Positions 2,397-39,606 of a stretch of 40,262 nt of DNA are shown here, piece by piece. The DNA is taken from positions 1-40,262 of the IMG/VR virus record IMGVR_UViG_3300042507_003200; one strand, 5' to 3'. The notes under the pieces are model-generated. The model was not told the origin of the DNA, ran no database searches, and was given only the letters and a program-made list of their open reading frames with translations. This stretch comes from a virus. Each line of letters starts with the position of its first letter. Positions within the stretch are counted from its first letter, which is position 1. The position numbers and the translations under genes were made by a program.

Positions 2397-2643
2397 TGAG
2401 CACCTCGTCGAGCTTGGCAGCGTACCAGATGGCCTTGCGGTTATCCTCCACCGAGTCAGCTTTCTTGCCCAGGCGCCACTGATACTTGATGACCTGACCG
2501 CGCAGGAAGCCGATGAACTGCTCACGGCCCAGGGCAGCGCGGATGGCATCAATGCACTCGATGCCGTTGTCCGTCTCGGCGTAGTGCGGCGGGTGGTTGA
2601 CCATGTCCTTGACAGGCGTGGCCTTAGTGGTCTTGCGTTGCAT
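2383..2643 (-). CDS. DUF3310 protein (T7 gp1.7-like)
   Basis: The 86-residue protein carries the family signature VNHPPHY followed by GIECID and a helical region (FLRGQVIKYQWRLGKK) typical of DUF3310, the group linked to T7 gp1.7, which has nucleotide kinase activity in T7. The start at 2643 (MQRKTTKAT) has AAGGAG upstream, inside the ThyX gene. Its neighbours, ThyX upstream and several DNA enzymes downstream, agree with a nucleotide role, but kinase activity is inference. Confidence 0.85.
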   Translation of the reverse strand: MQRKTTKATPVKDMVNHPPHYAETDNGIECIDAIRAALGREQFIGFLRGQVIKYQWRLGKKADSVEDNRKAIWYAAKLDEVLNEAE

Positions 2644-3292
2644 CGAGAATCTCCTTGAGTGAGGGCATGACGTGAAGCAGGGCAAGACGGCACATGACCG
2701 CAATCTCCCGGTGCTCCTTCTGGGTGCCGTTGCCTGCACGCAGCTGAATGTAGTGGATCCAGCTCCGTACCGAGCCTGCCATGTACAACCGGCTGGGCGT
2801 CAGGCCCTCGGGCAGCACGGCTCGTGCAACCTCCTTGGCGAGACCGCGCCGCAGCGCCTCGTGGTATGAGTGCATGGCATTGTCAGCCAGGGCGTGCTGC
2901 TCTCGGTTCCACCAGTCCTGCAGGGCGTGGTCGTCGATGTCGATGCTGGCCTGACGGTTCTTGGCATCTTGCAGCCGAGCTTCACGCAGCACCGGCTCAG
3001 CATCGACCTCAGCGTAGCGCTGGCTGAACTCCTGGAAGGAGAAACTGCGGTGGCGCAGGATCTGGCGAGCGATGTCGCGGGTCGTGGTAATCTCGATGAC
3101 CGCATGGGCCATCTCAAACGGCGACCAGTGATGGTTGCGGACGAGGTAGTTCAGCAGACGAGGAGCAGTCTCGTGGTTAGCCTGGTTACTCGGGTTCGAG
3201 ACCCGGGCGCAGTAGGCAACCAGCTCCTCGCCCGTCTGAACGCCTTCCAGCTCCAACGGCTGGGTGAATGCGATCAGACGGACTTGGCTCAT
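2624..3292 (-). CDS. thyX: Flavin-dependent thymidylate synthase ThyX
   Basis: The enzyme methylates dUMP to dTMP using methylene-tetrahydrofolate and FAD. The 222-residue protein has the diagnostic ThyX motif RHRx7S at residues 80-90 (RHRSFSFQEFS), preceded by NHHWSPFEM near 53-61 and followed by the C-terminal RAGNGTQKEHRE substrate-binding segment. The length is normal for the family. The start at 3292 overlaps the preceding stop as ATGA. The phage also encodes a ThyA-family protein at 27919-28701, so true dTMP synthesis is probably assigned to ThyX. Confidence 0.95.
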   Translation of the reverse strand: MSQVRLIAFTQPLELEGVQTGEELVAYCARVSNPSNQANHETAPRLLNYLVRNHHWSPFEMAHAVIEITTTRDIARQILRHRSFSFQEFSQRYAEVDAEPVLREARLQDAKNRQASIDIDDHALQDWWNREQHALADNAMHSYHEALRRGLAKEVARAVLPEGLTPSRLYMAGSVRSWIHYIQLRAGNGTQKEHREIAVMCRLALLHVMPSLKEILDATQDH

Positions 3293-27443: not shown

Positions 27444-27917
27444 TCAAATCTCCACAAGAAGTTGCTCCCAGGCCCGTCCGGCGCCTGTCCAGAGCTCCTT
27501 GGCCGCCGAGTGCGGGTATTCCTCCACAAAGACGACCCGCTCACAACTCGTGTTGAGCAGCAGCTTGATGCACGTCATGCAGGGGCTGGCCGTCACATAG
27601 CAGGTGTGGATGCTGTAGACGTCCTTGCACTGCAGCATCGCATTCTGCTCCGCGTGGATCGCCTGGCAGCCGTCAAGGTTCGTCCCACTCGGGGACGTAA
27701 CTCCTGAGCAGGCATGGGGATGGATAACAGGACCGAAGCCCACGTCATCCACATCGTTGCAGTGAGGCTGTCCAGCCGCGACGCCGTTGTAGCCAGTGGC
27801 CAATACATGGCCCCGCGCGTTCAGCAGCACGCAGCCCACCGCTCGGCGGCAGCATGTGGTTCGTTGGGCAGTCAGCAGGGCCAGCTTCAGAGCCCATTCG
27901 TCGCGGCTGGGTCTCAT
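27444..27917 (-). CDS. dCMP deaminase
   Basis: The enzyme converts dCMP to dUMP. The 157-residue protein has the zinc-binding cytidine/deoxycytidylate deaminase signature: HAEQNAM with the catalytic glutamate, and SPCMTC with two zinc ligands (TASPCMTCIKLL). ATG 27917 (MRPSRDEWALKLALL) lies one base after the stop of the upstream gene. It is the last gene of the leftward arm and next to the ThyA-family gene, so it can feed dUMP to ThyX and remove dCMP from competing uses. Confidence 0.93.
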   Translation of the reverse strand: MRPSRDEWALKLALLTAQRTTCCRRAVGCVLLNARGHVLATGYNGVAAGQPHCNDVDDVGFGPVIHPHACSGVTSPSGTNLDGCQAIHAEQNAMLQCKDVYSIHTCYVTASPCMTCIKLLLNTSCERVVFVEEYPHSAAKELWTGAGRAWEQLLVEI

Positions 27918-27918
27918 G

Positions 27919-28701
27919 TTACAGCTCCCACCAGCGACGAATATCACCTGGCCGGCTGTCACGCAGGACCTTAAGCTCCGTCATCAGGAACTGTGGATCG
28001 TTCCAGAGCAGCTTCGGCGTGTCAGGTTGCTCGAGCACCTGGCTGCCGAGGCACAACTTGGCGTCGTCCCAGTTGCTCTCATACAGGTGGCTGCTGGCCG
28101 CCGTCAGGAACAGTTGGCCAGGCGCCACGGCGTCGGCAGTCAGGCGATGCTCATTCAGCAGCCCACACACGAGGTGGCTGAGCATGCTGAAGTTGAAGAC
28201 GTCGTACGGCACGCCCAGCCACGCATCCGAGGAACGCATGAAGACGTGGCAGTTCAGCTTGTGCTGGCGGATGTTGAAGAAGATGGCCACCGTGCAGGGC
28301 ACGTCTTTGGTCTGAGGCGGGCATTCACGCCAGATGGTCAGACCGGCTTGACGACTGTCCTCGTCGACCTGCAGCTTCTCGATGATGTACGGCAGCTGAG
28401 CCACGATCTTGGGGCCGTAGGCACCGAAGAAGCGCTCGCCATCGTCGGAGAAGTCAGCGATGCGGCTGTTGTACGGTGCGATCGTCTCCACCCGGTCGTC
28501 GCCAGACAGGATCCAGAACGCCTCGGCCACCATGAACTTGAAGCTCAGACTGCGGTCAGGCACGCGGAGCACAGGCTTACGCATGTCCACCACGATTGTG
28601 CGTTGGGGAATCTCGCGGGTCATCTTGCCGCGTGGCGCTACGCAGTCGCCGTTGGTCAAGATGTCGTTGAGGGCTTGAAGCCAGATTCGTGAAAAGTCCA
28701 T
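27919..28701 (-). CDS. Thymidylate-synthase-family enzyme, predicted dCMP hydroxymethylase or methylase
   Basis: The 260-residue protein has the ThyA fold signatures: E60 in EAFWILSGDD, R117 in DEDSRQ, catalytic C136 in DVPCTV, RSSDAWLGVPYDV at 156-168 and HLY at 205-207. At position 167 it has Asp where ThyA has the Asn (E. coli N177) that selects dUMP; phage dCMP hydroxymethylase (T4 gp42) has Asp there. The segment equivalent to the TS tryptophan 80 has no Trp. So dCMP is the likely substrate. The phage already has ThyX. GGAGG precedes ATG 28701. Confidence 0.85.
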   Translation of the reverse strand: MDFSRIWLQALNDILTNGDCVAPRGKMTREIPQRTIVVDMRKPVLRVPDRSLSFKFMVAEAFWILSGDDRVETIAPYNSRIADFSDDGERFFGAYGPKIVAQLPYIIEKLQVDEDSRQAGLTIWRECPPQTKDVPCTVAIFFNIRQHKLNCHVFMRSSDAWLGVPYDVFNFSMLSHLVCGLLNEHRLTADAVAPGQLFLTAASSHLYESNWDDAKLCLGSQVLEQPDTPKLLWNDPQFLMTELKVLRDSRPGDIRRWWEL

Positions 28702-28710
28702 TTGATCCTC

Positions 28711-29625
28711 CTAGATCAGATCCAGCAGCGGGTAACGCTGCTTGGCATTGAAGCGCTTGAACGCTTGGGGATGGGGCACAGTGGCCGCCGTGATTTTCAA
28801 CCGGTACAGCTGCTCGTAGGCCTTATTGCCCAGAGCCACGACGCGCTCGGGATTGAGGTTATGGAGCACGGACAGATCCTGATCGGCGTTCAACCACAGC
28901 ACCTGGTCTTCGCCCACGTCGACAGCATCCAGCTGGTCGGCAAGCCACTGACTGCAGCCCTCACCACTGAATGAGGCGAAGGGCCACTGATACCAGGCAT
29001 CGTTGTCCTTGCGCTCAGCGAACGCCTCACCAATCAGCACGACCCGCGCATCCCAGTTGCCAGCCGAAGCCAGCTCCAGTGGATGCTGCTGGAAGCGCAG
29101 CCGGTCTACTCCAGCGACCAAGTTGTCAGTTGTGAACAGGTCATCGACCTTGGTGTAGTCGTAGACGAGCTCAGGCAGATCGGTGACCTGGTCCGCATAG
29201 AGGTCGTAGACCATCCGCAGCTGGTCCTCGTTGTCCAGCATCTCGAGGTGCTTGCGTGCCATGTACGACAGACGCACCGCTTCCCAGCCTGGCTGGCAGC
29301 GCACGACCACAGCACCGCAGCGCATGGCCAGACGCTCAAGCATCCGCCGGCTGGCGTGAGTCAAGCGGTCCCGGCCCTCACGGAAGGCGATGCCGTAGGG
29401 CATCTCGCTCAACCAGCAGCGATCGAAGACGACGTCTTGGTAGCCCAGCAGCGCAGGCAGCATGGCTTCGACGTAGACGCGGCCCAGGCTCTTCCCCACC
29501 CGGGGGAGGGCGGAGAAGTGGACGTACTTGGCGCCGGTGGCTTCAGCGAAGGCCTGACCAGCAGTGGACTTGCCACCACCGTCCGGACCTTCGAAGATGG
29601 TCAGCTTCTTGCTCACTTGGGCCAT
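28711..29625 (-). CDS. Nucleotide kinase fused to a uracil-DNA-glycosylase-like domain
   Basis: Residues 1 to about 185 form a thymidylate-kinase-like P-loop kinase: Walker A GPDGGGKST at 13-21, DRCWLSE with D68-R69 as in dTMP and deoxynucleoside kinases, and a lid-like YMARKH. Residues about 193-304 resemble the uracil-DNA glycosylase superfamily: LIGEAF at 197-202, PFASFSGEG, VVALGNKAYEQLY at 262-274 and HPQAF at 285-289. It lies between the ThyA-family and MazG-like genes and overlaps the latter by 13 bases. It may phosphorylate a modified dNMP; the second domain's job is unknown. Confidence 0.8.
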   Translation of the reverse strand: MAQVSKKLTIFEGPDGGGKSTAGQAFAEATGAKYVHFSALPRVGKSLGRVYVEAMLPALLGYQDVVFDRCWLSEMPYGIAFREGRDRLTHASRRMLERLAMRCGAVVVRCQPGWEAVRLSYMARKHLEMLDNEDQLRMVYDLYADQVTDLPELVYDYTKVDDLFTTDNLVAGVDRLRFQQHPLELASAGNWDARVVLIGEAFAERKDNDAWYQWPFASFSGEGCSQWLADQLDAVDVGEDQVLWLNADQDLSVLHNLNPERVVALGNKAYEQLYRLKITAATVPHPQAFKRFNAKQRYPLLDLI

Positions 29626-30011
29626 GACAGAATCTCCTCCAGGCGAGCCTCAGGACCAACCCAGCCTTCAGGCTTCTTGACGTCGTAGGCGCTGCCTCGC
29701 TTCGAGTCCTCAGCCTTGGCCACGCGGACCTTGGCCATGTTGCAGGAGTGAACCGCGTGCATACCAGCGTGCCACTGGGACGGATCGACGCCCAGGAAAA
29801 GCGCCGTGCCGTAGGCCACGTAGGCCAGATCCAGCAGGGCATCGAAGGCCTTGACGCGGTCACCGTCACCCAGAGCTTCTTCCAACTCGTCGAGCTCCTC
29901 TTGCAGGAACTTCAGACGGAAGACTGTGGCGTCCAGGTTATGGGTGAGCTGATCGTCCTTGCCCAAAGGTAGGCCGAACTTCTCGTGGAACTCAGCGACA
30001 TTTCCAATCAT
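29613..30011 (-). CDS. MazG-like nucleotide pyrophosphohydrolase
   Basis: The 132-residue all-alpha protein has the EExxE motif at 38-42 (QEELDELEEAL) and a following DALLDLAYVAYG helix at 57-67, the metal-binding layout of MazG/dUTPase-dCTPase type enzymes that cleave dNTPs to dNMP. In the context of a predicted dCMP-modifying enzyme it could remove dCTP, as T4 gp56 does, but substrate is not visible in sequence. ATG 30011 shares its A with the stop of the methyltransferase. Confidence 0.82.
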   Translation of the reverse strand: MIGNVAEFHEKFGLPLGKDDQLTHNLDATVFRLKFLQEELDELEEALGDGDRVKAFDALLDLAYVAYGTALFLGVDPSQWHAGMHAVHSCNMAKVRVAKAEDSKRGSAYDVKKPEGWVGPEARLEEILSWPK

Positions 30012-30820
30012 CAAAACGGCGCTCCTTTCGTCTTGCGGGCCGCGGGCTTGACCGGCTTGCCGTCAGCTGCTTTGCGGCAGACCCACAGGTTGTTGCGGGA
30101 GTGGTCCTCATGCAGCGGACCGAAGATGTTGCTGATGGCGTCGCTGTCGAAGTACTGCTCCAGCGCCTTGCGGACTTCCAGCACAGCTGCCTTGCTGCAA
30201 CCGGTAGGGTCAACCTTGCCGATGTGCTTGATGTCCATGAACGTGCCAAAGCGGCGCTCGATGACGAAGCCAGCCTTCTCGATGGCGGCCTGGAGCTCCG
30301 GAATCTTGTACTCATGGATGTGGTTCTTGGCATGCCGCACACCGTCGTAGACCGGAGTGGACAGCAGCAGCACGCCGCCCGGCTTGGTAGCCGCGAACAT
30401 GGCCTTGAGCAGGTTGGCGCCGTGCTCGACCTTCATGTGCTCGATGACCTCGTAGTTGACGACGACATCGAAGCCCTCAGGTCGTGCCTTGAGCAGCTCC
30501 TTGTAGCGCTCAACGAAGTTGAACTCGCCATGGAACGTCAGGCGCTGAGAGGCAGACGGCTTCAGCTTGTTCAGGTCCACGCCAGTGTAGTGGTTGACGT
30601 GCGCGGCAGCACCGCCAGTTAAAATCTTGCTGAGCGGCTTGTCTTCACCGCAGCCGACCTCGAGCACGTTGTGCTTGGCCGTGATGAAGCGACGGGCGAA
30701 GCTCCAGCGAAAGAAATGACTGCTGTAGTCTCTGTGAAGCGTACGACCGTGACCAGCTTCGTGAAGTTGAGTGGTGTCGTAATCGCGATTATCGCGTGCG
30801 ACTTCTTTAGGTTTTGCCAT
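30011..30820 (-). CDS. Class I SAM-dependent methyltransferase
   Basis: The 269-residue protein has motif I VLEVGCGEDKP at 52-62, an acidic motif II (YTGVDLNKL), then VVNYEVIEHM and PGGVLLLSTPVY, typical of the Methyltransf_11/23 group. The C-terminal tail is basic (KPAARKTKGAPF). The group acts on small molecules, RNA, protein or sugars, so the target is open; proximity to nucleotide-modifying genes suggests a nucleotide, a modified base, or a virion component. GAGGT precedes ATG 30820, inside the end of the HNH gene. Confidence 0.85.
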   Translation of the reverse strand: MAKPKEVARDNRDYDTTQLHEAGHGRTLHRDYSSHFFRWSFARRFITAKHNVLEVGCGEDKPLSKILTGGAAAHVNHYTGVDLNKLKPSASQRLTFHGEFNFVERYKELLKARPEGFDVVVNYEVIEHMKVEHGANLLKAMFAATKPGGVLLLSTPVYDGVRHAKNHIHEYKIPELQAAIEKAGFVIERRFGTFMDIKHIGKVDPTGCSKAAVLEVRKALEQYFDSDAISNIFGPLHEDHSRNNLWVCRKAADGKPVKPAARKTKGAPF

Positions 30821-30822
30821 GA

Positions 30823-31269
30823 TTACCTCTTTCTAAGTGGAGTGCTCAGGGCTCTGCTGACGTCCCATCCGCACTTGATTCGTTGCTGAAATTGATTGCT
30901 TGGTACTACGCATCTTGGATCAGATCCCCATTCCGCAGCGCACTTCGTTTCGCCGTTAAATGTAAGCATCACGTTGTTGGATTTGTTCCAACAATTTTGC
31001 TGGCGGGTGACAAACCGGCAGTTATCCGGGCCGTAGCCTTTACGGTTGTCGATGCGGTCAATGTCCAATCCTGATTTGTAATCATTGGCCAAAGCCCACT
31101 TAACAAACTCAGAGCAACCACGACGGCCTGCCCATCGAGCGTCCAGTGAAATTCCTTTGGCGCCGTAGTCCTTGTAAGATCTGGATTTAGGATAGTTGCA
31201 GCGTGCATTGATTCCGCTCCAAAGAGACTGGAGCTTAACAACCGTATCTACAACTTGATCCGGGTCCAT
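30823..31269 (-). CDS. HNH endonuclease (homing type)
   Basis: The 148-residue protein fits phage HNH homing endonucleases: LWSGINARCNYPKSRSYKDY, GAKGISLDARW, then LDIDRIDNRKGYGPDNCRFV and TRQQNCWNKSN. It is a free-standing gene in the operon, starting at ATG 31269 on the upstream stop (TGATG). Its bases look richer in A+T and its codons less biased than its neighbours, a sign of recent arrival. It may cut related phages lacking it. Confidence 0.87.
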   Translation of the reverse strand: MDPDQVVDTVVKLQSLWSGINARCNYPKSRSYKDYGAKGISLDARWAGRRGCSEFVKWALANDYKSGLDIDRIDNRKGYGPDNCRFVTRQQNCWNKSNNVMLTFNGETKCAAEWGSDPRCVVPSNQFQQRIKCGWDVSRALSTPLRKR

Positions 31270-31919
31270 CACTTCACCTTGGCTTCGGGCGGGTTCATGC
31301 CCTGCTTCTTCAGGTGGTTGCGATACCACTTGACGTAGCCACGTTTCTTCTCGTCCAGGCCGAACTTCTCCTGCACCTTCTCGAAGATCTTGTCGTCGGT
31401 CAGCTTGCCTTCCATGATCAGGTCTTGGAACATCTGGGCAGCCGACTGCTTTTTCTCGCCAGTCTTCTTCGCAGGTGTCTTGACGACCGGATCGATGGCG
31501 CGGCGACCTGCCTTGACGACCTCGGTGGATTTGGTCTTGGCGGCAGTTTTTGCCGGCGCGGCCTTCTTGGTTACGGGCTTGGCGGCAGTCTTCTCGGCGG
31601 CCGCGGCTTTCTTGGTGGTTGCCATTTCTAGCTCCTGTTTACTCACGTTGATGATCTGGCCCAGGTAATCCAAGGCCTCCTTGGTCGCCCCGATGTTCTG
31701 GCTGTAGCTCAGGTAGAGCTGGCAGGCCTTCTCAGCGGGGTATCCTTCCATCGGCGTGAACCGCTGGTCGAATGACTCCGCCGACGTCTTCTGGACTTCG
31801 AGTCCAGTGCTAACGTCGAGCGGAATATACTTGACATGCCCATTGACGCGCTCGACCTGAATGCAGGTGCGACGCTGATGGTCATGGTACGGCATGACGA
31901 CTAAATTCTTCTTGGCCAT
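31269..31919 (-). CDS. Protein with histone H1-like basic linker and shared C-terminal domain
   Basis: Residues 1-98 are a mixed soluble domain; about 99-157 is a lysine-alanine-proline linker (KKAAPAKTAAKTKSTE) like bacterial H1 tails; 159-211 is a helical domain (AAQMFQDLIMEGKLTDDKIF, then KFGLDEKKRGYVKWYRNHLK). The C-terminal domain recurs in the gene at 32274-32747. DNA binding is likely from composition; function is unknown. GGAGAAG precedes ATG 31919. Confidence 0.75.
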   Translation of the reverse strand: MAKKNLVVMPYHDHQRRTCIQVERVNGHVKYIPLDVSTGLEVQKTSAESFDQRFTPMEGYPAEKACQLYLSYSQNIGATKEALDYLGQIINVSKQELEMATTKKAAAAEKTAAKPVTKKAAPAKTAAKTKSTEVVKAGRRAIDPVVKTPAKKTGEKKQSAAQMFQDLIMEGKLTDDKIFEKVQEKFGLDEKKRGYVKWYRNHLKKQGMNPPEAKVK

Positions 31920-39243: not shown

Positions 39244-39606
39244 TTAATGCTTAGGCATACGGTCTGCGATGCGCTGTCGATTGATTAGCAGGTCTGCCTC
39301 AGTGGGTGACCAGCCTTGCAACCAACCTGCTGGCACTGAGACTGCAGGGCACTCAGTATGCTGCGGGCTGTAGCCACGACGAATCATCTCGGCCACTAGC
39401 TGCTTGAAGCGCTGTTGACAGTAGTCGAGGCGGCTATAGAAGAACTTCACATGCCCGGCACCAAGCGTGTACGTGTCAGGAGCTGTGACGCCACCACGCT
39501 TAGCGGCAGCCTCGGCTAGTCTGAACACGCGCGGCAGCTCGCGGTACTCAGCCACCAAGTGCTTCTGATGGAGCTCCTCAACAGGCACACAGTTGATGCG
39601 GGTCAT
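39244..39606 (-). CDS. denV: Pyrimidine dimer DNA glycosylase, T4 endonuclease V (DenV)-like
   Basis: The 120-residue protein starts MTRINCVPVEELHQKHLVAE, then YRELPRV, in register with T4 DenV. The catalytic N-terminal Thr (T2) and Glu (E23) are both present, and TLGAGHVKFFYSRLDYC matches the DNA-binding core. The enzyme removes UV-induced pyrimidine dimers and cuts the strand. It is slightly shorter than T4 DenV (138 residues), lacking the aromatic C-terminus (WYKYYG). It lies two bases after the preceding gene. Confidence 0.93.
   Translation of the reverse strand: MTRINCVPVEELHQKHLVAEYRELPRVFRLAEAAAKRGGVTAPDTYTLGAGHVKFFYSRLDYCQQRFKQLVAEMIRRGYSPQHTECPAVSVPAGWLQGWSPTEADLLINRQRIADRMPKH

Follow-up and report, generated by a model that had tools for sequence, protein, structure and literature searches.

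A predicted dNMP kinase joined to a domain with a predicted uracil-DNA-glycosylase fold in phages that probably modify their cytosine

A 304-residue protein encoded in the window, the whole stretch of 40,262 nucleotides of viral DNA that was analysed (IMG/VR virus record IMGVR_UViG_3300042507_003200), joins an N-terminal P-loop deoxynucleoside monophosphate (dNMP) kinase to a C-terminal domain that is predicted to adopt a reduced uracil-DNA glycosylase (UDG) fold. The best explanation overall, to which we give a probability of about one half, is that the protein is a kinase for a modified cytosine nucleotide and that its second domain reads bases without being catalytic. The C-terminal domain, of the family-4/UdgX type and packed on the kinase, would no longer excise bases; its old uracil pocket would bind a pyrimidine base or nucleotide and in this way gate the kinase, or bias it, towards the modified nucleotide. 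The substrate of the kinase, the lack of excision and the reading of bases are what we infer.

A preliminary description of this DNA had placed the open reading frame at 28711-29625 on the minus strand, and it is present there, its ATG preceded by a Shine-Dalgarno-like GGAGGAG. The motifs quoted in that description were all found: GPDGGGKST at residues 13-21, DRCWLSE at 68-74, LIGEAF at 197-202, VVALGNKAY at 262-270 and HPQAF at 285-289. The features of the protein and of its neighbourhood are listed in Table 1.

Table 1. Features of the fusion protein and of genes related to it in the window
Feature	Coordinates	Strand	Basis
dNMP kinase and predicted UDG-fold fusion protein, 304 aa	28711..29625	-	ORF, ATG start
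P-loop dNMP kinase domain, residues 1-160	29146..29625	-	PHROG 761, fold search
Walker A GPDGGGKST, residues 13-21	29563..29589	-	
DRCWLSE, residues 68-74	29404..29424	-	place of DR(Y/H) motif
Variable linker, residues 161-180	29086..29145	-	dN/dS
Compact UDG-fold domain (predicted), residues 181-304	28714..29085	-	predicted structure, profile search
Motif-A equivalent LIGEAFAER, residues 197-205	29011..29037	-	alignments, conservation
N246, equivalent of the base-reading Asn	28888..28890	-	alignment, conservation
HPQAFKR, residues 285-291, motif-3 equivalent HPxxxxR	28753..28773	-	spacing and position
MazG-like NTP pyrophosphohydrolase, candidate dCTPase	29613..30011	-	family matches
Class I SAM methyltransferase	30011..30820	-	
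TS homologue, predicted dCMP hydroxymethylase	27919..28701	-	Asp at E. coli N177; Asp three residues before catalytic Cys
dCMP deaminase	27444..27917	-	probable ATG at 27917, start inferred from sequence
ThyX (FAD-dependent thymidylate synthase)	2624..3292	-	

The kinase domain matched PHROG 761, thymidylate kinase, with an E value of 9e-13. Its closest solved fold, and the best solved relative of this part of the chain, was YorR of the SPBc2 prophage (3kb2, Z 14.1), which consists of a kinase only, and many thymidylate (TMP) kinases followed at a Z of about 13. The P-loop kinase fold, the Walker A motif and the DR motif of a TMP-kinase-like dNMP kinase are all present, the last as DRCWLSE, which we take to correspond to DR(Y/H) in TMP kinases. 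The window protein scored below the cut-offs of the dTMP kinase models PF02223 (13.8 versus 27 bits) and TIGR00041 (20.5 versus 83.25). Phage T4 gp1 was absent among the best matches listed, which says nothing on homology.

Single-sequence searches did not settle what the C-terminal domain is, and the Pfam UDG family PF03167 stayed below threshold in the window protein (16.3 bits versus a gathering cut-off of 24.3); it was the fold model that decided. A model of the full chain reached a pLDDT of 94.8 and a pTM of 0.92, values suggestive of a fixed packing of the two domains. Since a fold search with the whole chain filled with kinases, the C-terminal domain was modelled alone from 43 relatives (pLDDT 89.4, pTM 0.83) and searched by itself. 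All 36 Foldseek matches at E<=1e-3 were family-4 UDGs or UdgX, and the model superimposed on 4zbx with a Z of 11.0 at 2.6 A over 117 of its 125 residues. A profile of the domain run against the PDB gave 26 chains at E<=10, all of them UDGs and each a weak match (E 0.1-1.8); with the two most distant phage relatives described below, those of phage G and DSL-LC01, added to the profile, the E values were no better and chance matches to HMG-box chains appeared. Judged by these models, the C-terminal domain belongs to the alpha/beta UDG fold. The preliminary description had proposed a kinase joined to a UDG-like domain, and had made the proposal depend on structure prediction recovering a UDG fold in the C-terminal part; the fold was recovered and the proposal was borne out. 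Its delimitation of the domain as residues 190-304 held as to the fold, but the start lies near residue 180. In the fetched loci the UDG-like domain was never seen on its own. We also considered a fused UDG-polymerase in the window phage and rejected it, the DNA polymerase of the window having no UDG match.

Much of the base pocket can be traced. In printed alignments E200 falls on the Glu of the GE(A/Q)PG motif of family-4 UDG and UdgX, PF216 on the PF stacking motif and N246 on the base-reading Asn, while HPQAFKR was equated with H178 and R184 of UdgX by motif spacing only and not by a printed alignment. The pocket-equivalent residues rank among the most conserved in the C-terminal domain. 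In clade 1 (31 sequences) the acid at position 200 is kept as E or D in 27, F216 in all 31, N246 in 27, and H285 and R291 in 29 each. Clade 2, whose 12 sequences share about 31-33% identity with the window protein, retains the acid (as D), the Phe and the Asn, yet has Pro in place of the His and Gln in place of the Arg. The acid position is occupied by Q in gp315 of Bacillus phage G.

Compared with family-4 UDG and UdgX, the window domain shares the fold, the motif-A acid, the PF stacking motif, the Asn and the HPxxxxR ending, but it is fused to a kinase and is short, with 125 residues against about 190-205. Its motif A is without the P-G, no UdgX-type His loop was seen in it, and the four cysteines that would hold the 4Fe-4S cluster of a family-4 enzyme are not there, C224 being the only Cys in the domain. 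In the superposition the 117 aligned residues are drawn from a stretch of about 184 in the solved enzyme, which leaves about 65 residues of the family-4 span missing here, and the domain is acidic, with a net charge of -6. The models therefore point to a reduced UDG fold in which the base pocket is largely kept and much of the family-4 elaboration is gone.

The domain is under purifying selection. In most close pairs the dN/dS of the UDG part was 0.03-0.15, near the values of the kinase part, with a higher value of 0.42 in the pair formed by Stenotrophomonas phage AXL3 and Pseudoxanthomonas phage PW916. The linker had a dN/dS of mostly 0.2-0.5 and exceeded both flanking domains in most pairs. 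In the lineage of the window, the UDG-fold domain is conserved rather than decaying.

The fusion gene lies in a tight run, with short gaps or overlaps, that comprises the methyltransferase, the MazG-like enzyme, the fusion, the thymidylate synthase (TS) homologue and the dCMP deaminase. The class I methyltransferase, which could act on a modified base, also adjoins the fusion in most clade-1 loci, AXL3 included. Upstream of it is an HNH-like ORF (30823-31329) that is found in the same place in loci L025-L027 and is possibly a mobile endonuclease gene; it had no Pfam match. Elsewhere in the window, positions 39244-39606 encode a DenV-type pyrimidine-dimer glycosylase like that of T4 (Pfam Pyr_excise, 56.3 bits).

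The preliminary description had also placed a base-modifying enzyme next to the fusion, and this agrees with the TS homologue, which has the catalytic Cys together with both signature Asp residues of a dCMP hydroxymethylase and is predicted to be one. For the numbering we used an E. coli TS reference sequence that was checked at its key residues only. On this numbering, the TS homologues beside fused kinases have Asp at position 177 in 65 of 65 readable distinct sequences, and a second Asp, three positions ahead of the catalytic Cys, in 65 of 66. Asp177 is the determinant of dCMP over dUMP (PMC5175136, PMC8670742), and the second Asp, Asp145 in T4, is the hydroxymethylase signature (PMC6400193). 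ThyX, an enzyme that makes dTMP with no need for a TS, is encoded in the window and also by AXL3; dTMP would be supplied separately by ThyX and the dCMP deaminase, and the TS homologue would therefore be left free for dCMP. Only 2 of 37 enzymes cut AXL3 DNA, both with A/T-only sites, and the DNA resists enzymes with G/C in their sites (PMC7504290). At one locus (L047:6755-7756) the TS homologue beside the fusion has Asp177 and the folate-site Trp, with Leu at the position of the hydroxymethylase Asp, and is possibly a dCMP methylase that makes 5-methylcytosine.

Because of the dCMP-type TS neighbours, the hydroxymethylase Asp, ThyX and the resistance of AXL3 DNA, the fusion kinase is most likely a 5-hydroxymethyl-dCMP kinase. 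That it serves the replacement of cytosine by a base modified at C5, most likely 5-hydroxymethylcytosine, we consider highly probable. In such a pathway the MazG-like enzyme would convert dCTP to dCMP, the TS homologue dCMP to 5-hydroxymethyl-dCMP, and the fusion kinase this product to the diphosphate, from which host NDP kinase would make the final precursor for the phage polymerase. A plain dTMP kinase was rejected, since the TS neighbour is of the dCMP type and ThyX is present. Against the pathway stands locus L045 (L045:5947-7480), which has a fused kinase and no TS homologue within the fetched stretch; the next ORF there resembles a phage adenine methyltransferase. The same steps can be assigned in phage T4 to gp56 (dCTPase), gp42 (dCMP hydroxymethylase) and gp1 (dNMP kinase), of which gp1 phosphorylates 5-hydroxymethyl-dCMP. 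A T4-like set is here gathered in one operon, as a MazG-like enzyme, a dCMP-type TS homologue and a P-loop dNMP kinase. Unlike the T4 enzyme, the window kinase is nearest by fold to YorR and the TMP kinases and carries the UDG-fold domain, which to our knowledge T4 gp1 is without.

A profile search found a relative encoded in 193 viral stretches, and the best 80 of these (77 loci) formed the analysed set. Full-length relatives include those of AXL3 (46%), PW916 (46%) and ctUtU524 (55%), with further ones among IMG/VR contigs; 11 close viral loci encode relatives, and the full-length form occurs in about 75 retrieved viral loci. These numbers, with both domains conserved at low dN/dS, show that the fusion is no chance arrangement. 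Fold search and follow-up led to the same two-domain architecture in two very distant phages, Bacillus phage G (gp315, L095:5928-6923) and actinophage DSL-LC01, whose proteins have the HPxxxxRF ending in common. In phage G gp315 the UDG part scored 48.2 bits with Pfam UDG, well above the cut-off of 24.3, and the best solved relative of the protein was YorR, with an E value of 2e-15. The gp315 cluster also encodes an alpha-glucosyltransferase (gp313), a deaminase (gp317) and a dCMP-type TS (gp319), from which it appears that phage G may carry glucosylated hydroxymethylcytosine. In DSL-LC01 the fusion adjoins a dCMP-type TS and a deaminase, and the TS homologues of both phages have the two signature Asp residues. 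The pairing thus recurs in very different phages that are predicted to make altered cytosine. Plasmids gave weak partial matches only (E 0.5-1), and bacterial genomes gave two weak matches to the kinase part among the matches listed.

Kinase-only relatives occur in similar operons at loci L062, L064, L066 and L083 and in pelagiphages. One such operon, of the pelagiphage type (Votkovvirus; L091:3651-5672), encodes an NTP pyrophosphohydrolase, a kinase without the UDG domain, a dCMP-type TS and a deaminase, and is the same pathway minus the UDG domain. The UDG-fold domain is accessory and dispensable for the pathway, because kinase-only relatives occur in the same kind of operon, and a strict requirement for it was rejected for the same reason. 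In the kinase tree the kinase-only L062/L064 and L083 fall on the side of clade 1, a moderately supported position (81/90) that is compatible with loss of the UDG domain and is not proof of it.

What the UDG-fold domain does is the more tentative part of the explanation. We favour reading of the base without catalysis over an active glycosylase or a docking module because the Fe-S cysteines, the P-G of motif A and about 65 family-4 residues are absent, because clade 2 has lost the His and the Arg yet keeps the stacking Phe and the Asn, and because the acid is replaced in gp315 and the window domain is compact and acidic. The earlier suggestion, in which the second domain would read or sort the modified nucleotide, is compatible with this evidence. 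Several observations count against base reading. Clade 1, with the window protein, mostly keeps all five pocket-equivalent residues, which could equally support excision; the kinase-only operons indicate that phosphorylation of the modified nucleotide can do without the domain; and the conserved Asn at the N246 position normally selects uracil, not cytosine. It is doubtful, although conceivable, that the domain goes further and proofreads, the kinase admitting a dNMP to the precursor pool only after the UDG pocket has recognised the modification.

An active N-glycosylase would remove uracil arising from dCMP deamination, or another unwanted base, from phage DNA or nucleotides, so that one chain would both feed modified nucleotides and clear wrong ones. 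The pocket kept in clade 1 argues for this, a crystal structure pairs UdgX with dUMP (6ajp, by its title), and modified cytosine is a possible target of UDG folds: Brig1, which shares the fold, recognises a modified cytosine and excises alpha-glucosyl-hydroxymethylcytosine (PMC11078745). Brig1 differs in being a stand-alone bacterial defence enzyme that excises its base, whereas the window domain is part of a phage protein that also contains a kinase. The losses from the family-4 fold, the replacement of His and Arg in clade 2 and of the acid in gp315, and the acidity of the window domain make excision unlikely.

We regard as similarly improbable a purely structural or interaction module, which would dock the kinase on the hydroxymethylase or on the replication machinery in a nucleotide-synthesis complex at the fork, with the pocket residues kept for structure. 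The fixed packing suggested by the whole-chain pTM and the lineages without the UDG domain would agree with docking, as would UDG folds on other phage replication enzymes. The SPO1 DNA polymerase carries an N-terminal UDG domain (Pfam UDG E 3e-22), and the phiLo polymerase a UDG-like one (9qhs, Z 9.2). The SPO1-type enzyme resembles the fusion as a UDG fold on a DNA-metabolism enzyme of a phage with a modified pyrimidine, but its partner is a polymerase, its UDG sequence stands far closer to family 4 and the modified base is hydroxymethyluracil. As these polymerases show, phages attach UDG folds to DNA-metabolism enzymes, which suits base reading or docking; docking leaves the strong conservation of the pocket-equivalent residues unexplained. 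The database names of AXL3 gp29 and phage G gp315 (thymidylate kinase) speak for an ordinary dTMP kinase whose UDG part has decayed and lost its function, but this is very improbable given the low dN/dS of the UDG part in most pairs, the presence of the fusion in very distant phages and a TS neighbour that, where present, is always of the dCMP type.

No description of a kinase-UDG fusion was found in the literature searched, a partial selection, although the two domain families and the pathway are each already known. Record names such as thymidylate kinase or hypothetical protein give no hint of the second domain or of the likely substrate. Phage T4 keeps unmodified nucleotides out of its modified genome by destroying dCTP, and we know of no account of how most other phages exclude them from fully modified genomes. 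A kinase with a base-recognising fold, which distant phages keep next to enzymes predicted to modify dCMP, is a candidate for this sorting of nucleotides that can be tested directly, and would be a case of a UDG fold moving from DNA repair into nucleotide metabolism. Proofreading of the base, if true, would mean that the quality of an altered genetic alphabet is controlled while its letters are still nucleotides.
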